A DNA stretch of 57,048 nt from the NCBI GenBank assembly GCA_002026005.1, contig MWOX01000151.1, positions 1-57,048 of the forward strand. Reading direction: 5' to 3'. Shown here in pieces: positions 5,167-37,741 of this stretch. The notes beneath the pieces were generated by a model. That model searched no databases and was not told the origin of the DNA. It saw nothing but the letters and a program-made list of their open reading frames with translations. Numbering within the stretch: position 1 is the stretch's first letter; each line of letters begins with the position of its first letter. This stretch comes from Prochlorococcus sp. HOT208_60m_808M21. Its GTDB lineage: Bacteria; Cyanobacteriota; Cyanobacteriia; PCC-6307; Cyanobiaceae. The position numbers were made by a program, and so were the translations under genes.

Positions 5167-5532
5167 TTATCTGTTGGAAATATTGAAGGAAAAATCCTTA
5201 ATCGAGAATTTATTAAATAATGACTTACCTATTTGTGAACCCACACCGTTGTTCTTGAGTTCTTTTTGATATGCCTCTTTGCTTGAGAGAATGAAATCTT
5301 TAATCGAGAATTTATTAAATAATGACTTACCTATTTGTGAACCCGCACCGTTGTTCTTGAGTTCTTTTTGATATGCCTCTTTGCTTGAGAGAATGATATC
5401 TTTAATTGAAAATTTATTAAATAATGACCTTCCTATTTGTGAACCCACACCGTTGTTCTTGAGTTCCTTTTGATATGCCTCTTTGCTTGAGAGAATGATA
5501 TCTTTAATCGAGAATTTATTTAAGAATGACAT
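5167..5532 (-). CDS. Internal-repeat protein (34-residue units)
   Basis: 121 residues made of more than three copies of a 34-residue unit beginning NKFSIKDIILSSKEAYQKEL and ending NNGVGSQIGKSLF. The DNA repeats with a 102-bp period (about 5190-5530). Units differ by only a few substitutions, so the expansion is recent. The predicted character is helical and basic, with no membrane segment. I do not recognise the family. Copy number probably varies between strains by slippage or recombination. Confidence 0.6.
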   Translation of the reverse strand: MSFLNKFSIKDIILSSKEAYQKELKNNGVGSQIGRSLFNKFSIKDIILSSKEAYQKELKNNGAGSQIGKSLFNKFSIKDFILSSKEAYQKELKNNGVGSQIGKSLFNKFSIKDFSFNISNR

Positions 5533-6151: not shown

Positions 6152-6334
6152 ATGAAACTATTCAATCAATTCACAATCCTTCCAAGATACCTAAAAGCAT
6201 TTAATTATGCTGGAAACAGAATGGAAGAAATAACAAGAAATCTTGATAGAGATAACCATTTATTTGAAGACTATTGGAAGAGGGAATGTAGAGAACATCC
6301 AACTAATCAGCATTGTTTAGTCTATTGCGACTGA
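6152..6334 (+). CDS. Microprotein with C-terminal ECxxHPxNxHCxxxCD motif
   Basis: 60 residues, ATG at 6152 preceded by AGGAGG. The C-terminus reads FEDYWKRECREHPTNQHCLV followed by YCD: three cysteines and conserved E, HP, N and H. Two minus-strand genes near 26.0 and 26.4 kb end in the same pattern, so this is a family. It recalls the cysteine/proline C-terminal loop of CP12 (C-x-x-x-P...C), but the N-terminal CP12 features are absent, so I do not name it CP12. Confidence 0.65.
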   Translation: MKLFNQFTILPRYLKAFNYAGNRMEEITRNLDRDNHLFEDYWKRECREHPTNQHCLVYCD

Positions 6335-6352: not shown

Positions 6353-6485
6353 TTGACAACTGAGTATAAATACTCTATAAATAAAGTGTAGTAAATGCTA
6401 CCAAATCGTCCGATCTACTATTAGATAGACCGCAGTACGAATCAAGCCATAGGACGGGGACTTGATCAAGACCAGGAGCTGCATA
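6353..6485 (+). promoter_or_regulatory. Promoter and structured leader of DUF4278 micro-ORF, copy 1
   Basis: TTGACA (6353-6358), 17-bp spacer, TATAAA (6376-6381). The spacer holds the dyad AGTAT-AA-ATACT. The leader that follows is closely matched at 30862-30994. Stems seen: GTAG/CTAC, TCTA/TAGA, and ATCAAG/CTTGAT, which is CTCAAG/CTTGAG in copy 2 (a covarying pair). Upstream CGTCC can pair with GGACG in the last loop, giving a pseudoknot. It ends in AGGAGCTGCAT just before the ATG. Probably a cis-acting RNA; ligand unknown. Confidence 0.65.
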
Positions 6486-7396: not shown

Positions 7397-7813
7397 ATGA
7401 AAAACATTCTGTATAAAATTTTTGAATTCCTAAAGGATCTTTTCCAAAAAATTTCTGAATTTTTAAAAAGAAGATTTTCTGAAGAAGAAGAGAAGCCAGT
7501 TGAAGAAGAGAAGCCAGTTGAAGAAGAGAAACCAGTTGCAGAAGAGATGCCAGTTGAAGAAGAGAAGCCAGTTGAAGAAGAGAAACCAGTTGAAGAAGAG
7601 ATGCCAGTTGAAGAAGAGAAACCAGTTGCAGAAGAGAAACCAGTTGCAGAAGAGAAACCAGTTGAAGAAGAGAAGCCAGTTGAAGAAGAGAAGCCTGTTG
7701 AAGAAGAGAAACCAGTTGAAGAAGAGAAGCCAGTTGAAGAAGAGAAGCCTGTTGAAGAAGAGAAACCAGTTGCAGAAGAGAAACCAGTTGAAGAAGAGAA
7801 GCCTGAATTATAA
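7397..7813 (+). CDS. EEEKPV-repeat protein
   Basis: 138 residues. The first ~28 form an amphipathic, basic, aromatic helix (MKNILYKIFEFLKDLFQKI). The rest is a run of six-residue units EEEKPV or AEEKPV, about 17 copies, ending KPEL. The N-terminal helix could lie on a membrane, with the acidic, proline-spaced tail extended. Family not recognised. The 18-bp DNA unit keeps a second frame open as well, but only this frame has a start with a sensible N-terminus. Confidence 0.6.
   Translation: MKNILYKIFEFLKDLFQKISEFLKRRFSEEEEKPVEEEKPVEEEKPVAEEMPVEEEKPVEEEKPVEEEMPVEEEKPVAEEKPVAEEKPVEEEKPVEEEKPVEEEKPVEEEKPVEEEKPVEEEKPVAEEKPVEEEKPEL
7488..7806. repeat. 18-bp tandem repeat array in the EEEKPV gene
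   Basis: About 17 consecutive 18-bp units with consensus gaagaagagaagccagtt, varying mostly at GAA/GCA and AAG/AAA. A minisatellite inside a gene, so copy number should vary between strains and may be mis-assembled. Confidence 0.85.
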
Positions 7814-11167: not shown

Positions 11168-11341
11168 TTAAATTTGTTCAGTTATGGAAATCTGGCTTAT
11201 ATTATTAACTTTTTTTTCTCTATATTTCGTTAGGAAAAATACCATTGAGCTAAAAACAACTAAAAATCCTATTAATGATATTCGATAGAAAAGGTCATCA
11301 GACATATCAAAAAAAGCTGATCTTTTAAATTTGTTTCTCAT
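11168..11341 (-). CDS. Small single-span membrane protein (57 aa)
   Basis: ATG at 11339-11341, only a base or two after the U-run of the conserved hairpin at 11343. Basic N-terminus MRNKFKRSAFFDMSDDL, then a membrane helix (RISLIGFLVVFSSMVFFLT) and a polar tail. No family recognised. Confidence 0.5.
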   Translation of the reverse strand: MRNKFKRSAFFDMSDDLFYRISLIGFLVVFSSMVFFLTKYREKKVNNISQISITEQI

Positions 11342-11342
11342 C

Positions 11343-11389
11343 AAAAAAAGAGGGTTTTATCCCTCTAAGTTTAGATCGACTGTCAATCA
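11343..11389 (-). promoter_or_regulatory. Hairpin-tail leader element, copy 1
   Basis: AGAGGG-loop-CCCTCT next to an A-run (U-run on the minus strand), with the shared tail GTTTAGATCGACTGTCAATC to its right. On the minus strand it reads tail, hairpin, U-run, then the ATG of the 57-residue gene. It acts as a terminator or attenuator; there is no room for a promoter between the U-run and the start codon. Confidence 0.65.
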
Positions 11390-12142: not shown

Positions 12143-12402
12143 TATTCAACTGGAGTTAGTGAATAGCAAATATCTTTATAACCATTTTTTTTATCCCAAT
12201 CTTTCATCTCTGGAGTACTTGTAGCAGCAGCAAATCCTTCTAAATCTTTGACTTTAAGTATCAAGTGACTTTTATGTTCATTTACCTTGATGAGTTCATA
12301 TTCTTCAACATATCGATGTCCCTCCTTTTCATGGAAATCGGCTACAAATTTATCGAAATCTTCAAAAGAACAATCAAAAGTAGAAACTATTAAGGTATTC
12401 AT
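12142..12402 (-). CDS. Small alpha/beta-barrel-like hypothetical protein (86 aa)
   Basis: 86 residues: MNTLIVSTFDCSFEDFDKFV, a central KSHLILKVKDLEGFAAATST and a C-terminal CYSLTPVE. The beta-alpha-beta-beta layout is like the dimeric ferredoxin-fold (ABM/DUF3764-like) microproteins common in Prochlorococcus, but I cannot assign the family. The ATG lies 2-3 bases after the U-run of hairpin-tail element copy 2. Confidence 0.5.
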   Translation of the reverse strand: MNTLIVSTFDCSFEDFDKFVADFHEKEGHRYVEEYELIKVNEHKSHLILKVKDLEGFAAATSTPEMKDWDKKNGYKDICYSLTPVE

Positions 12403-12403
12403 G

Positions 12404-12446
12404 TAAAAGAAGGTTTTATCCTTCTATGTTAGATCGAATGTCAATC
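12404..12446 (-). promoter_or_regulatory. Hairpin-tail leader element, copy 2
   Basis: AGAAGG-TTTTAT-CCTTCT with tail TTAGATCGAATGTCAATC. The stem differs from copy 1 by paired changes (AGAGGG/CCCTCT to AGAAGG/CCTTCT). It lies between the stop of the 40-residue gene at 12449 and the start at 12402. Confidence 0.6.
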
Positions 12447-13736: not shown

Positions 13737-14132
13737 TCAGTTTTTCCTTTTAATTAATCCATAAGTACATAATATAGGATTCACTATTAAAATAACCCAA
13801 AAAGGAGGTGGAGGACCTCCATCAACAATTGTTCCCGCATTAAAAGTATTGAATAAAGCTACTGCTAATAAACTAGCCATTAAAGCTAGTTCACCTGTTA
13901 AAACTTTTTTTAAAGATTTCTTATCTTTGATAGAGCTGCAAATAATCAATAGGAAACCTATCCCTAAATTACTAGCTGCTACAACATCTGCAGTCCCTCT
14001 TACAAGAAGCAATGTTTCACTTGAAGCGTTGCCTGCGATAGTTTCCACAGAAAAAATAAGTAGGAAAATAATTAATAATCCCAATAGGATATGAAGAATC
14101 CCAGTAGTTTTTAAAATATTTTTTAACTTCAT
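13737..14132 (-). CDS. Membrane protein of unknown function (131 aa)
   Basis: Four membrane segments: ILHILLGLLIIFLLIFSVET (residues ~12-32), LGIGFLLIICSSI, ELALMASLLAVALFNTF and FWVILIVNPILCTYGLI near the C-terminus. A proline-rich loop (DGGPPPPF) precedes the last. No transporter motif seen. The start at 14130-14132 lies a few bases after the U-run of hairpin-tail copy 4. Confidence 0.6.
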   Translation of the reverse strand: MKLKNILKTTGILHILLGLLIIFLLIFSVETIAGNASSETLLLVRGTADVVAASNLGIGFLLIICSSIKDKKSLKKVLTGELALMASLLAVALFNTFNAGTIVDGGPPPPFWVILIVNPILCTYGLIKRKN

Positions 14133-14137
14133 ACTAG

Positions 14138-14183
14138 AAAAAAAGGAGCTATTTGCCCCTTAGTTTAGATCGACTGTCAATCA
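14138..14183 (-). promoter_or_regulatory. Hairpin-tail leader element, copy 4
   Basis: GGAGC-TATTT-GCCCC with an A-run on its left and TAGTTTAGATCGACTGTCAA on its right. The stop codon of the upstream monooxygenase-like gene (14177-14179) is inside the tail, and the membrane-protein start is 6 bases beyond the U-run. Terminates or attenuates between the two genes. Confidence 0.65.
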
Positions 14184-14554: not shown

Positions 14555-14983
14555 TTATCCTTCAGCGGGAATTAAAATTGGAACATCTTGTGCTCCAATT
14601 GCTGCGAACCAAACTATTGCGTTATCAGTTTTTGCATTACCCATTGTATGTTTTGGTGTCTTTGGACCAACTATAAAAGTATCACCTGCTGTATAGATAA
14701 GATCTTCCATCCCTTGTCTTTTGACAACTATTGTCCCTTGCTCAACATTGCCTAATAAAGGAATTGGATGAGAGTGGAGTGGAACTATTCCTCCTTCAGC
14801 CAACTCGACTCTTTGTAATCTTATTTCTGCTTTTCCTTTTGGGTATTTAAGAGCATCTCCATCCATAGTCTCAGAACCTACAAAGACTTCTTGTACATCA
14901 ACGGGAGATTCTGCAGCTATAGAAATATTAGGGTTGATAAGCATTAATGCAAAAACAAATGCTATTAAAAAATTTTTCATCAT
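14555..14983 (-). CDS. Exported cupin-domain protein
   Basis: 142 residues. Signal peptide at residues 1-23 (MMKNFLIAFVFALMLINPNI, then SIAA-E). The mature part is a single cupin barrel: motif 1 around VPLHSHPIPLLGNVEQGTIV (HSH plus downstream acidic), motif 2 GDTFIVGPKTPKHTMGNAKT (His). The three metal ligands H-x-H and H are present, so metal binding is likely; substrate unknown. Probably periplasmic. Lies 25 bp before the tail of hairpin copy 5. Confidence 0.7.
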   Translation of the reverse strand: MMKNFLIAFVFALMLINPNISIAAESPVDVQEVFVGSETMDGDALKYPKGKAEIRLQRVELAEGGIVPLHSHPIPLLGNVEQGTIVVKRQGMEDLIYTAGDTFIVGPKTPKHTMGNAKTDNAIVWFAAIGAQDVPILIPAEG

Positions 14984-25434: not shown

Positions 25435-25953
25435 TCAAACAAGAGTTTTAATTGTTCTTTCTAGAGGATTAAAATTGACTCTTTTGATTTTGTTATTTTC
25501 GTAAATCCAATAAACAGGTGGACTTTTTCTTGCCTTAATTAAATTAATTTTGTCTAATTTTTTAGGGATAAATTCTTTAGAAGGATCAAAAAATTTATCT
25601 CTTTTAGGTTGGTTTAAAACAATACTACCTTCTTTCCCTGAGATAGATCTATGATACGTTCCTATAGGAATTTCTAATGCTCCCATAGATCTATTTAAAT
25701 AAATCATATGATGTGGTTCATCCCAGAAAGGATTTATTAAAACAAATTTCCTTTCTCCGGTGATAACTAAATTGTGGTCAATTTGATGATAGTGAACGTA
25801 ATATTGCTCATCTTTTAAATCATCTGGAGGAGATATAGCTTCCCCAGAATGTATCACGACGTCAGAACCATTAAAAGTATCTATGCCTGCATCGAAGAAT
25901 GTTACTTTTGGAGTTTCTCTAAAAACATTTATTGGGAAGAATCTTAATTCCAT
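25435..25953 (-). CDS. Conserved hypothetical protein, cupin-like
   Basis: 172 residues, soluble. Starts MELRFFPINVFRETPKVTFF. Beta-rich pattern with DHNLVITGERKFVLINPFWD and HHMIYLNRSMGALEIPIGTY-HRS, resembling a single cupin barrel, but I cannot confirm metal ligands. The stop is two bases from the LOG gene start, so the two are probably co-translated. Function unknown. Confidence 0.5.
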   Translation of the reverse strand: MELRFFPINVFRETPKVTFFDAGIDTFNGSDVVIHSGEAISPPDDLKDEQYYVHYHQIDHNLVITGERKFVLINPFWDEPHHMIYLNRSMGALEIPIGTYHRSISGKEGSIVLNQPKRDKFFDPSKEFIPKKLDKINLIKARKSPPVYWIYENNKIKRVNFNPLERTIKTLV

Positions 25954-26774: not shown

Positions 26775-26900
26775 TCATTCATCTAATCTATCTGCATATT
26801 CTCTTAAAATCTCAGCCATCTTTTGAGGTGGAATTTCTTGTTGATATTCTCTACATAAATCAAAAAATTTATCTAAGAAATCTTTCATTGAAGAGGACAT
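26775..26900 (-). CDS. Small soluble helical protein (41 aa)
   Basis: ATG at 26898-26900, five bases after the stop of the 31-residue membrane gene. MSSSMKDFLDKFFDLCREYQ, then PPQKMAEILREYADRLDE. Last of a four-gene microprotein unit. Confidence 0.5.
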   Translation of the reverse strand: MSSSMKDFLDKFFDLCREYQQEIPPQKMAEILREYADRLDE

Positions 26901-26905
26901 AAAAA

Positions 26906-27001
26906 TTAGCGTTTCATTTTAAAAGTAAAGTATGCAAACACACCAAGCAATAAAAGACTCACGACCCCATAAGTAATCGCAATGCCGTACATGTAAGTCA
27001 T
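26906..27001 (-). CDS. Small membrane protein (31 aa)
   Basis: ATG at 26999-27001 overlaps the previous stop (ATGA). Almost entirely one membrane helix (ITYGVVSLLLLGVFAYFTF) ending in KMKR. Confidence 0.5.
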   Translation of the reverse strand: MTYMYGIAITYGVVSLLLLGVFAYFTFKMKR

Positions 27002-27138
27002 TTATTTATAAAGACATAAGCAGAGTATAAATAAACTAAGAAAACTCCAATAGCAATGGAGCTTCCATAAATAAGAAAATTCCAAAATCTATATAATTTA
27101 GGTTTTTTAAATTCTTTTTCTTCTTCTTTAGTAATCAT
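26998..27138 (-). CDS. Small membrane protein (46 aa)
   Basis: ATG at 27136-27138 overlaps the previous stop (ATGA). Polar, lysine-rich head (MITKEEEKEFKKPKLYRF), then a membrane helix (GSSIAIGVFLVYLYSAYVF). The chain of overlaps argues that all members are translated. Confidence 0.55.
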   Translation of the reverse strand: MITKEEEKEFKKPKLYRFWNFLIYGSSIAIGVFLVYLYSAYVFINK

Positions 27139-27257
27139 TTATTTTCTTTTTCTGTTTCTTTTCTGGCAGCATTACCTTTTGCTCTTAATACCAAAGTTAT
27201 CGTAAGGGCAGCGCTTAATATCACAGCATCAATTAATAGGTGCGGGGAAATATTCAT
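27135..27257 (-). CDS. Small membrane protein (40 aa)
   Basis: First gene of the overlapping unit, ATG at 27255-27257. Membrane helix LLIDAVILSAALTITLVL, then a charged tail (RKETEKENK). Hairpin-tail copy 7 lies about 60 bases upstream. Confidence 0.55.
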   Translation of the reverse strand: MNISPHLLIDAVILSAALTITLVLRAKGNAARKETEKENK

Positions 27258-27317: not shown

Positions 27318-27363
27318 AAAAAAAGAGGGGTTTATCCCTCTAAGTTTAGATCGACTGTCAATC
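27318..27363 (-). promoter_or_regulatory. Hairpin-tail leader element, copy 7
   Basis: AGAGGGG-TTTAT-CCCTC beside an A-run, tail TAAGTTTAGATCGACTGTCA, nearly identical to copy 1 over 15 kb away. It lies between the 51-residue gene (stop at 27410) and the four-gene microprotein unit. Confidence 0.65.
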
Positions 27364-27409: not shown

Positions 27410-27565
27410 TTAGCCAGAGCAAGAGAAGGCACCTGCAAGAATATTTTTAAAAATTGGTGCTTGACCCAAGGCATATAAAAAGAAAGTTGATGATGCGAGA
27501 GTAATAGCTATTTTAGAAGCCCTGTTAACTTTCAAATTTGAGAATTTTGCAAATGCAGAGCTCAT
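27410..27565 (-). CDS. Small hypothetical membrane protein (51 aa)
   Basis: ATG at 27563-27565. Basic head (SNLKVNRASKIA), hydrophobic middle (ITLASSTFFLYALGQAPIF) and a C-terminal AGAFSCSG. One membrane helix likely. Family unknown. Confidence 0.5.
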   Translation of the reverse strand: MSSAFAKFSNLKVNRASKIAITLASSTFFLYALGQAPIFKNILAGAFSCSG

Positions 27566-30861: not shown

Positions 30862-30994
30862 TTGACATCTAAGTATAAATACTTTATAAATAGATTGTAG
30901 TAAATACTACAAAATCGTCCGATCTACCATCTGATAGACCGCAGTACGACTCAAGCCATAGGACGGGGACTTGAGCAAGTTCAGGAGCTGCATC
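30862..30994 (+). promoter_or_regulatory. Promoter and structured leader of DUF4278 micro-ORF, copy 2
   Basis: TTGACA (30862-30867), 17-bp spacer with dyad AAGTAT-AA-ATACTT, TATAAA (30885-30890). The leader is closely similar to 6353-6485, with changes that keep the stems: CTCAAG/CTTGAG here for ATCAAG/CTTGAT there, and GTAGT/ACTAC for GTAG(T)/(G)CTAC. CGTCC and GGACG, the proposed pseudoknot strands, are unchanged. Confidence 0.65.
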
Positions 30995-37285: not shown

Positions 37286-37741
37286 GCAATTTTTAATCTA
37301 CTTTCTATTTAGCAAATAAATAAATCTTTGACATTAGATTATTGTTATTAAGATTTTATTTAATAGGTTAATTAACTATCTGTGTGCTTTTATATTTATT
37401 TATTTTAAAAATGAAAGAGCCTGCAAGTATCCCACCGGCAAGCTCATGACGACCTAGTTAATTCAGATTTTCTGATTTAACCAGCTAAGCACTTCCTAAA
37501 TGCTTATAACATTCTACTAAGTAAAATTACTTACTGTGAGTATAAATGCTTATTTTTTAATTTTTGATCTGTGGCTTTTATAAAAAAGTGATTTGATCAA
37601 AAAATGTGGATTGTAAATTTCTTTTTAACAGAAATGTCACAAATTAACTATGAAATAAATACTCAGAGGAAAATCAGTAAAGATTTTGGTTTACATAAGT
37701 TAATATTTGTGTTACATTAATTAACAATTATTATCTTTTTA
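37286..37741. other. Gene-poor region before hli
   Basis: No supported protein. A 12-codon frame (ATG AAA GAG CCT near 37412) and a hairpin GTTAAT-TCAG / CTGA-TTTAAC (about 37456-37481) are present. The last 60 bp before the hli start at 37742 probably hold its promoter. Confidence 0.3.

Follow-up and report, generated by a model that had tools for sequence, protein, structure and literature searches.

A 19-codon leader cistron and a candidate promoter module, reused across the genus, precede a chain of tiny membrane-protein genes in Prochlorococcus

We consider it reasonably probable, from comparison of sequences, that a chain of tiny overlapping genes in Prochlorococcus belongs to a five-cistron unit, L-A-B-C(-D), whose expression would be driven by a promoter/5'UTR module that high-light Prochlorococcus uses repeatedly. 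The window, that is the whole stretch of DNA analysed, comprises 57,048 nt of Prochlorococcus sp. HOT208_60m_808M21 (GCA_002026005.1, contig MWOX01000151.1, positions 1 to 57,048). An earlier note on this DNA had described a four-gene operon, and its four ORFs, with their coordinates, overlaps and gap, were reproduced exactly; the four genes are present, but the operon apparently starts one cistron earlier, at a 19-codon ORF (27316-27257) that this note had missed together with the multi-copy module at the upstream end. Prochlorococcus genomic islands contain many short genes without assigned function and, to our knowledge, little is known about the activation of island genes in a cell so poor in regulators. 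The features of the locus, and the other copies of the module in the window, are the following.

27349..27363, minus strand: 15-bp near-palindrome GATTGACAGTCGATC with 6 of 7 pairs symmetric, a putative operator
27343..27348, minus strand: TAAACT, a TANNNT (-10-like) box directly after the palindrome, a putative promoter
27318..27341, minus strand: hairpin AGAGGG-ATAAAC-CCCTCT, followed by a T-tract abutting the leader ATG, a putative 5'UTR hairpin of terminator-like appearance
27316-27257, minus strand: leader ORF L, 19 aa (MINKFINEKIMTLLISLYS), whose TGA stop and the ATG of gene A have one A in common
27257-27135, minus strand: gene A, 40 aa, single membrane span and basic C-terminus
27138-26998, minus strand: gene B, 46 aa, basic N-terminus and then one span, ATGA overlap with A
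27001-26906, minus strand: gene C, 31 aa, with one span, from a multi-copy family and overlapping B by ATGA
26900-26775, minus strand: gene D, 41 aa, soluble and predicted to fold as a two-helix hairpin, attached loosely and decayed in many relatives
14132..14182, minus strand: second module copy, before a 131-aa ORF (ATG 14132)
12402..12446, minus strand: third module copy, hairpin AGAAGG/CCTTCT, before an 86-aa ORF (ATG 12402)
11341..11388, minus strand: fourth module copy, before a 57-aa ORF (ATG 11341)

The leader ORF was found through a similarity search with the leader region. Its peptide family has the consensus MxKRFIAEKIMTLLISLIx, and 141 distinct copies were collected from 394 fetched loci, 106 of them preceding A and 35 lying elsewhere (several of the latter being broken or partial). 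In the 121-genome genus set a leader match at E <= 1 is found in 98 genomes, the weakest of these matches being likely due to chance. Of the 35 copies that do not precede A, 20 could be assigned an ATG gene downstream, and these genes are C paralogs (5), single-span ORFs of 29-31 aa (3) or 37 aa (2), ORFs of 136-143 aa (3) and MKR/MKG-type ORFs (7), including a glutamine amidotransferase. The spacing between the leader stop and the next start is -4 to +4 in 13 of these 20 cases and 9-32 in the other 7. A stop that abuts or overlaps the next start, in a cistron reused before different genes, is what is expected of a bicistronic leader.

At the loci linked to A, the intact overlapping 19-aa leader is kept in 109 of 138 distinct contexts, and the other 29 have a lost start, a lost stop or no leader. 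The leader dN/dS is 0.93 among 77 distinct A-linked copies, with an unusually low pS of 0.11, compared with 0.28 among 11 distinct copies elsewhere and 0.44 between the two groups. Because of this value of 0.93 and of the 29 contexts without an intact ORF, the leader peptide does not appear to be essential at A-linked loci, and the constraint on the leader may act on nucleotides. Translation of the leader itself seems to us fairly probable. At the window locus the leader has no Shine-Dalgarno sequence; at one other locus (L199, identical to L373) a 15-aa ORF intervenes between the module and the leader, which is itself preceded by AGGAGG, and two further leaders (L177 and L178) have no module within the preceding 48 nt. 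A 51-aa ORF with one moderately hydrophobic stretch lies upstream of the module in the window (27410-27565, minus strand), and a close relative occupies the same place at locus L033.

Four clear module copies are present in the window, at 27363, 14182, 12446 and 11388. The 16-mer ATTGACAGTCGATCTA, with at most 1 mismatch, occurs in 120 of the 121 genus genomes, mostly in several copies and in front of many small genes that are not related to one another, and a reversed-pattern control in none of them; with at most 2 mismatches, ten genomes contain 7 to 19 copies each, the control giving 0 in nine genomes and 2 in one (G309). In a family sample, all 16 genus members contain the 16-mer, compared with 2 of 235 other genomes, one of which has the full module anatomy (L426) and the other does not (L425). 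The cleanest test of this anatomy used 141 non-redundant copies picked on a 14-mer alone (at most 1 mismatch): TANNNT stands at one offset in 126 of the 141 (background 138/5000), a T-run of at least 4 lies within 44 nt in 120 (background 2118/5000, for a 38-nt stretch) and an ATG follows this run after 0-3 nt in 86 of these 120 (background 3630/52750), the other 34 having no ATG at that distance. An earlier background for the ATG after the T-run, 1265/22342, also required an ORF and is not strictly comparable. In a looser set of 245 distinct module copies, orthologs included, an ATG follows the T-run in 110 of 112 leader-type copies and in 72 of 98 other copies in which a T-run and a nearby ATG are present; another 35 copies have none. 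A -10 box at a fixed place from a conserved dyad, upstream of genes, is what a sigma70-type promoter would present at the level of sequence, and we regard it as likely that the module is a promoter; common descent, and not selection, may account for the shared TANNNT box.

Consensus folding of 18 automatically aligned copies gave no consensus structure, for which we blame misaligned stems, and the stems were therefore scored copy by copy against shuffled sequences. A stem of at least 5 bp is found in 73% of 83 non-redundant copies, which had been preselected for palindrome, T-run and ATG, compared with 25% of shuffles, and compensated stems are seen (AGAGGG/CCCTCT, AAGGGGC/GCTCCTT, AAGAAGC/GCTTCTT and AGAGTG/CACTCT). 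The ORFs downstream of these 83 copies are 15 to 210 aa long and comprise DUF3804, DUF3764 and DUF1330 proteins, solitary D and secreted-looking proteins. Rfam, searched at the gathering score, gave no family match at the operon locus.

A hairpin followed by a T-tract is also the textbook shape of a terminator. The element might then be an intrinsic terminator of the preceding genes that is copied with cassettes, the operon having another promoter of its own. The ORF upstream of 80 copies is divergent in 18, co-directional in 35 and unassignable in 27; the 35 co-directional cases among the 53 assignable ones, 19 of them within 44 nt, agree with a terminator, as does the window copy at 14182, which starts at the stop codon that ends the ORF before it. 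Since 18 of the 53 follow a divergent ORF, however, the module is not merely the terminator of a preceding gene, and further arguments against this explanation are the ATG directly behind the T-tract, far above background, the near-palindrome and TANNNT box at fixed spacing before the hairpin, and the genus-wide conservation of the module. We consider a terminator unlikely and retain a promoter as the preferred reading of the element.

The distribution of the module links it to genomic islands and to phage-like sequences. In genome G015, which we take to be MED4, 15 of the 17 module copies (at most 2 mismatches) lie at 347-360, 654-657 and 1347-1365 kb. RNAs near these clusters are assigned to MED4 islands 1, 2 and 5 in Table 1 and section 8 of the MED4 study (PMC2518516). 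The same Table 1 places in island 5 the small RNA Yfr20, which is found in the window at 37418-37505 (minus strand).

The exact 16-mer occurs in eight IMG/VR contigs, two of which (L443 and L444), both with T4-like cyanophage genes, were kept as module-bearing. Five others (L439, L441, L442, L445 and L446) were set aside as chance occurrences, hairpin and T-tract being absent, and in L440 the 16-mer lies at the edge of the examined stretch. Contig L444 contains PhoH and T4-type RNase H genes and has the module ahead of a D gene. Contig L443, which is 80.7% identical to Prochlorococcus phage P-TIM68 over 36% of its length, encodes a RecA/UvsX-like protein, a DnaB-type helicase and MazG; it has one full module copy, followed by a 20-aa ORF and then the RecA-like gene, and a weaker copy beside DUF3764, upstream of a cupin that by eye resembles window 14555-14983. 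L443 and L444 may be cyanomyovirus-like contigs on which the host module accompanies island genes, misassembly being possible in metagenomic data. The IMG/VR search gave no relatives of A, B or C, and the matches to D were L233, which is one public contig with L444, and the weak locus L234. In the phage collection B had no match, and D matched only four Tsukamurella phage records at E 0.4, which were rejected. Partial blastn matches of the L444 module to phages, which among the best 20 of 52 lie mainly over the hairpin and T-tract and reach a best E of 0.06, were not counted as copies. Close behind the operon in the window, a 172-aa protein (25435-25953, minus strand) matches phrog_9052, 'hemagglutinin', at E 3.7e-51.

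One could also regard the element as a site of recombination by which small genes are shuffled from islands to phages and back, in which case the placement of the ATG would be a by-product. The copies on the cyanomyovirus-like contigs, the closeness of some copies to one another and the recurrence of A-B, C, D, leader and DUF1651 in different combinations, described below, are all in keeping with such a site; the promoter-like internal anatomy and the fixed distance to the ATG argue against it, and we find this explanation rather improbable.

Downstream of the module, the A/B and B/C junctions are each an ATGA with a 4-nt overlap, and a gap of 5 nt separates C from D. In first-order Markov sequences of the region's own composition and length (ATG ORFs of at least 30 aa, gaps of -4 to +10), a chain of four ORFs arose in 0 of 20,000 and a chain of three in 1 of 20,000; elsewhere in the window there are three further chains of three that end in a short ORF. 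Hydropathy bore out the earlier description of A, B and C as single-span and of D as soluble, with one strong hydrophobic segment in each of A, B and C and none in D (maximal 19-residue Kyte-Doolittle means of 2.17, 1.91, 2.16 and -0.41 for A, B, C and D). The predicted structure of B is one long helix (mean pLDDT 81.3) and that of D a two-helix hairpin (mean pLDDT 85.0).

The number of genomes in the 121-genome genus set with a match at E <= 0.01 is 90 for A, 84 for B, 92 for C and 87 for D. The overlaps, on which the claim of tight coupling had been built, hold in other strains, being -4 in 74 of 83 related junctions for A-B and in 68 of 79 for B-C, with a few shortened or shifted copies of A to C among the exceptions; the 5-nt gap between C and D is found in 32 of 50 loci with a placeable D start. 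Stops or frameshifts in related genomes, which would speak against these frames, spare A, B and C as a rule and strike D, so that the conserved overlaps and reading frames of a coupled small-protein operon are seen for A to C and not for D. The dN/dS values (NG86), calculated for distinct copies of the expected length with pairs more than 25% different and other lengths left out, are 0.136 for A, 0.331 for B, 0.410 for C and 0.191 for D, the last figure omitting broken copies and thereby flattering D. Altogether, A, B and C look like real genes. B was found in 15 of 251 genomes and 1 of 59 genera in the family sample, and the best 80 of 157 confirmed relatives found via B are 77 from Prochlorococcus and 3 from uncultured Synechococcaceae.

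Profile searches of A to D against Pfam, NCBIfam, PHROGs and PDB gave nothing above cut-off. The weak family names obtained (NDUF_B12, PsbJ, TOM5 and conantokin) were all below it and were rejected, NDUF_B12 scoring 15.2 bits for a cut-off of 22.7; the significant profile match that would mark a photosystem or NDH small subunit is thus missing from these searches.

Tiny hydrophobic peptides of this kind could be toxins of type I toxin-antitoxin systems or phage-exclusion peptides, for which their size and single span and the island and phage association of the module would be suitable, and small ORF-bearing island RNAs are discussed as possible toxin-antitoxin pairs in the main text of the MED4 study (PMC2518516). 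The chaining of three membrane peptides in one operon and the wide occurrence of A (90 of 121 genomes) fit another role better, and there is no Rfam match in the region; we hold a toxin or exclusion function to be quite improbable.

Gene D behaves differently from its neighbours. Within the family sample it occurs in 76 of 251 genomes, which span 31 of 59 genera, and at the loci looked at in other genera its neighbourhood is a different one that lacks A, B and C. A gene of 215-232 aa comes next after D in several of these genera, and the one that was scanned (L066:1665-2333, plus strand) matches no Pfam family. Eighty named loci were parsed for D; 9 were without B by the search expression and 10 more without an accepted C, leaving 61 to be judged. 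D is intact by script in 20 of these, nearly or fully full-length in 3 (L283, L284 and L314, which the script had placed in its 'truncated' class of 8), truncated in 5 and without an ATG-started frame in 33, and is thus broken in 38 of the 61. An ATG->ATA change and the same 1-nt gap are common to 28 of the 61 aligned loci (in L264 within a larger deletion) and, being shared, look like one old loss followed by decay. D appears to be a loosely attached, interchangeable cargo gene.

The end of the chain can also be exchanged. In 10 of 13 distinct B copies without a nearby C, a DUF1651-type ORF starts on the stop of B (spacing -1), its identity having been checked with Pfam at L020 (49.8 bits, cut-off 22) and judged by likeness at the rest. 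Members of the C family are found after DUF3804, a 61-aa ORF, a 37-aa MELLHQIF.. ORF or a DUF1651-like ORF, and often precede a 31-aa single-span ORF via another ATGA overlap; C is a promiscuous family with multiple copies, present in many other small operons. The earlier note had taken strict coupling as a sign of a small membrane complex. Coupling of A-B(-C), as suggested by the sequences, stands; a fixed unit of four subunits does not, given the DUF1651-type swap, C elsewhere, and D alone or decayed. The reading of that note, one obligate four-part membrane complex of A, B, C and D, would agree with the conserved ATGA overlaps and with purifying selection on intact copies, but is very improbable, D being broken in most parsed loci, C-D being replaced after A-B, and C and D occurring in other contexts, and for D it is already largely refuted.

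For the five-cistron unit, we infer the following course of expression. A regulator would bind the near-palindrome GATTGACAGTCGATC and RNA polymerase would use the TANNNT box just downstream of it; the transcript would begin about at the hairpin, with a 5'UTR consisting approximately of hairpin, U-tract and AUG, without a Shine-Dalgarno sequence. The U-tract would be the ribosome loading site and the 19-codon leader would be translated first, after which the TGATG overlap of leader stop and A start would hand the ribosomes to A, and the ATGA overlaps would pass them on to B and C. By this hand-over the three single-span peptides would be made together. The positive-inside rule predicts an N-out/C-in orientation for A and C and the opposite one for B, a topology that would suit a small assembly of A-B(-C) in the membrane or subunits added on to a larger complex; to an assembly of A and B in the membrane we give about an even chance. 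D would be an interchangeable cargo of the unit.

Since other island genes are preceded by this module too, and in some cases by this leader as well, the operon would be part of a genus-wide set, and this set may be stress- or phage-linked. A stress- or phage-linked use as such is suggested by the island and phage association and by the rise of DUF1651 members that has been reported, in one paper, on phage infection (PMC5490813), and we propose it tentatively, as somewhat short of an even chance. Only slightly below even we place a regulon of high-light Prochlorococcus in which a transcription factor for GATTGACAGTCGATC drives a large set of island-borne tiny genes, T4-like cyanophages carrying the same promoter with captured genes. 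Its promoter would be stereotyped, with a 5'-terminal hairpin and U-tract leader and sometimes the shared 19-codon coupling cistron, and in cyanophages the host regulator or the state of infection would drive the captured island genes.

A module defined by sequence, with its core in 120 of 121 genomes, predicts co-regulated genes and the start sites to look for in existing transcriptomes, and indicates the host promoter that may have been acquired by cyanophages. The case further illustrates that an ORF of 19 codons, too short for gene callers, is detectable through its reuse, and the engineered bicistronic leader may have a natural counterpart here.

Other features of the window are recorded for their own sake. 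Two Glutamine-II riboswitch aptamers lie at 6404-6466 and 30913-30975 (both plus strand), the first directly preceded by a small ORF ending in YWKRECREHPTNQHCLVYCD. A similar cysteine-rich C-terminus (..C..xP....C...C) is found in the small ORFs 26180-26034 and 26641-26384 (minus strand) and 6152-6334 (plus strand), and presumably recalls CP12 tails. ORFs consisting of near-identical tandem repeats, with 34-residue units and EEKPV units, are present at 5167-5532 (minus strand) and 7397-7813 (plus strand).

As for known systems, no described instance of the module/leader system was found in the searched literature, outside whose scope many subscription journals and supplements lie. The MED4 study, in the text covered here, mentions neither the near-palindrome module nor a shared 19-aa leader (PMC2518516), the accessible text of two further papers has nothing on the operon locus (PMC3898218, PMC5126843), and the string GACAGTCGATCTA occurs, within searchable text, in one E. 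coli CpdB paper only. PsbJ-type photosynthetic small subunits resemble A to C in size and single span, and the match of B to PsbJ is weak (E 0.5); they differ in the lack of significant similarity and in the restriction of B to one genus of the family sample. DUF1651 (PF07864) is not homologous to A to D and is the alternative partner after B in the 10 loci without C. The small RNAs and short mRNAs of the MED4 islands, as described in the main text of that study, come from the same islands as the operon, mostly in high-light strains, and short island ORFs of 33-130 aa missed by gene callers are reported there (PMC2518516). The closest likeness of the leader is to bicistronic leaders, as far as described in the texts on the short ORF upstream of iraD (PMC5574718) and on the engineered design (PMC5995908), with which it shares the stop/start junction between leader and next gene and, in the engineered case, variable downstream genes. 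It differs from these in being natural and multi-copy across unrelated operons of one genus, in having no Shine-Dalgarno sequence here and in that its coupling is putative. By analogy, the unit would work both like a bicistronic leader and like the promoter of a regulon, each of a known kind.
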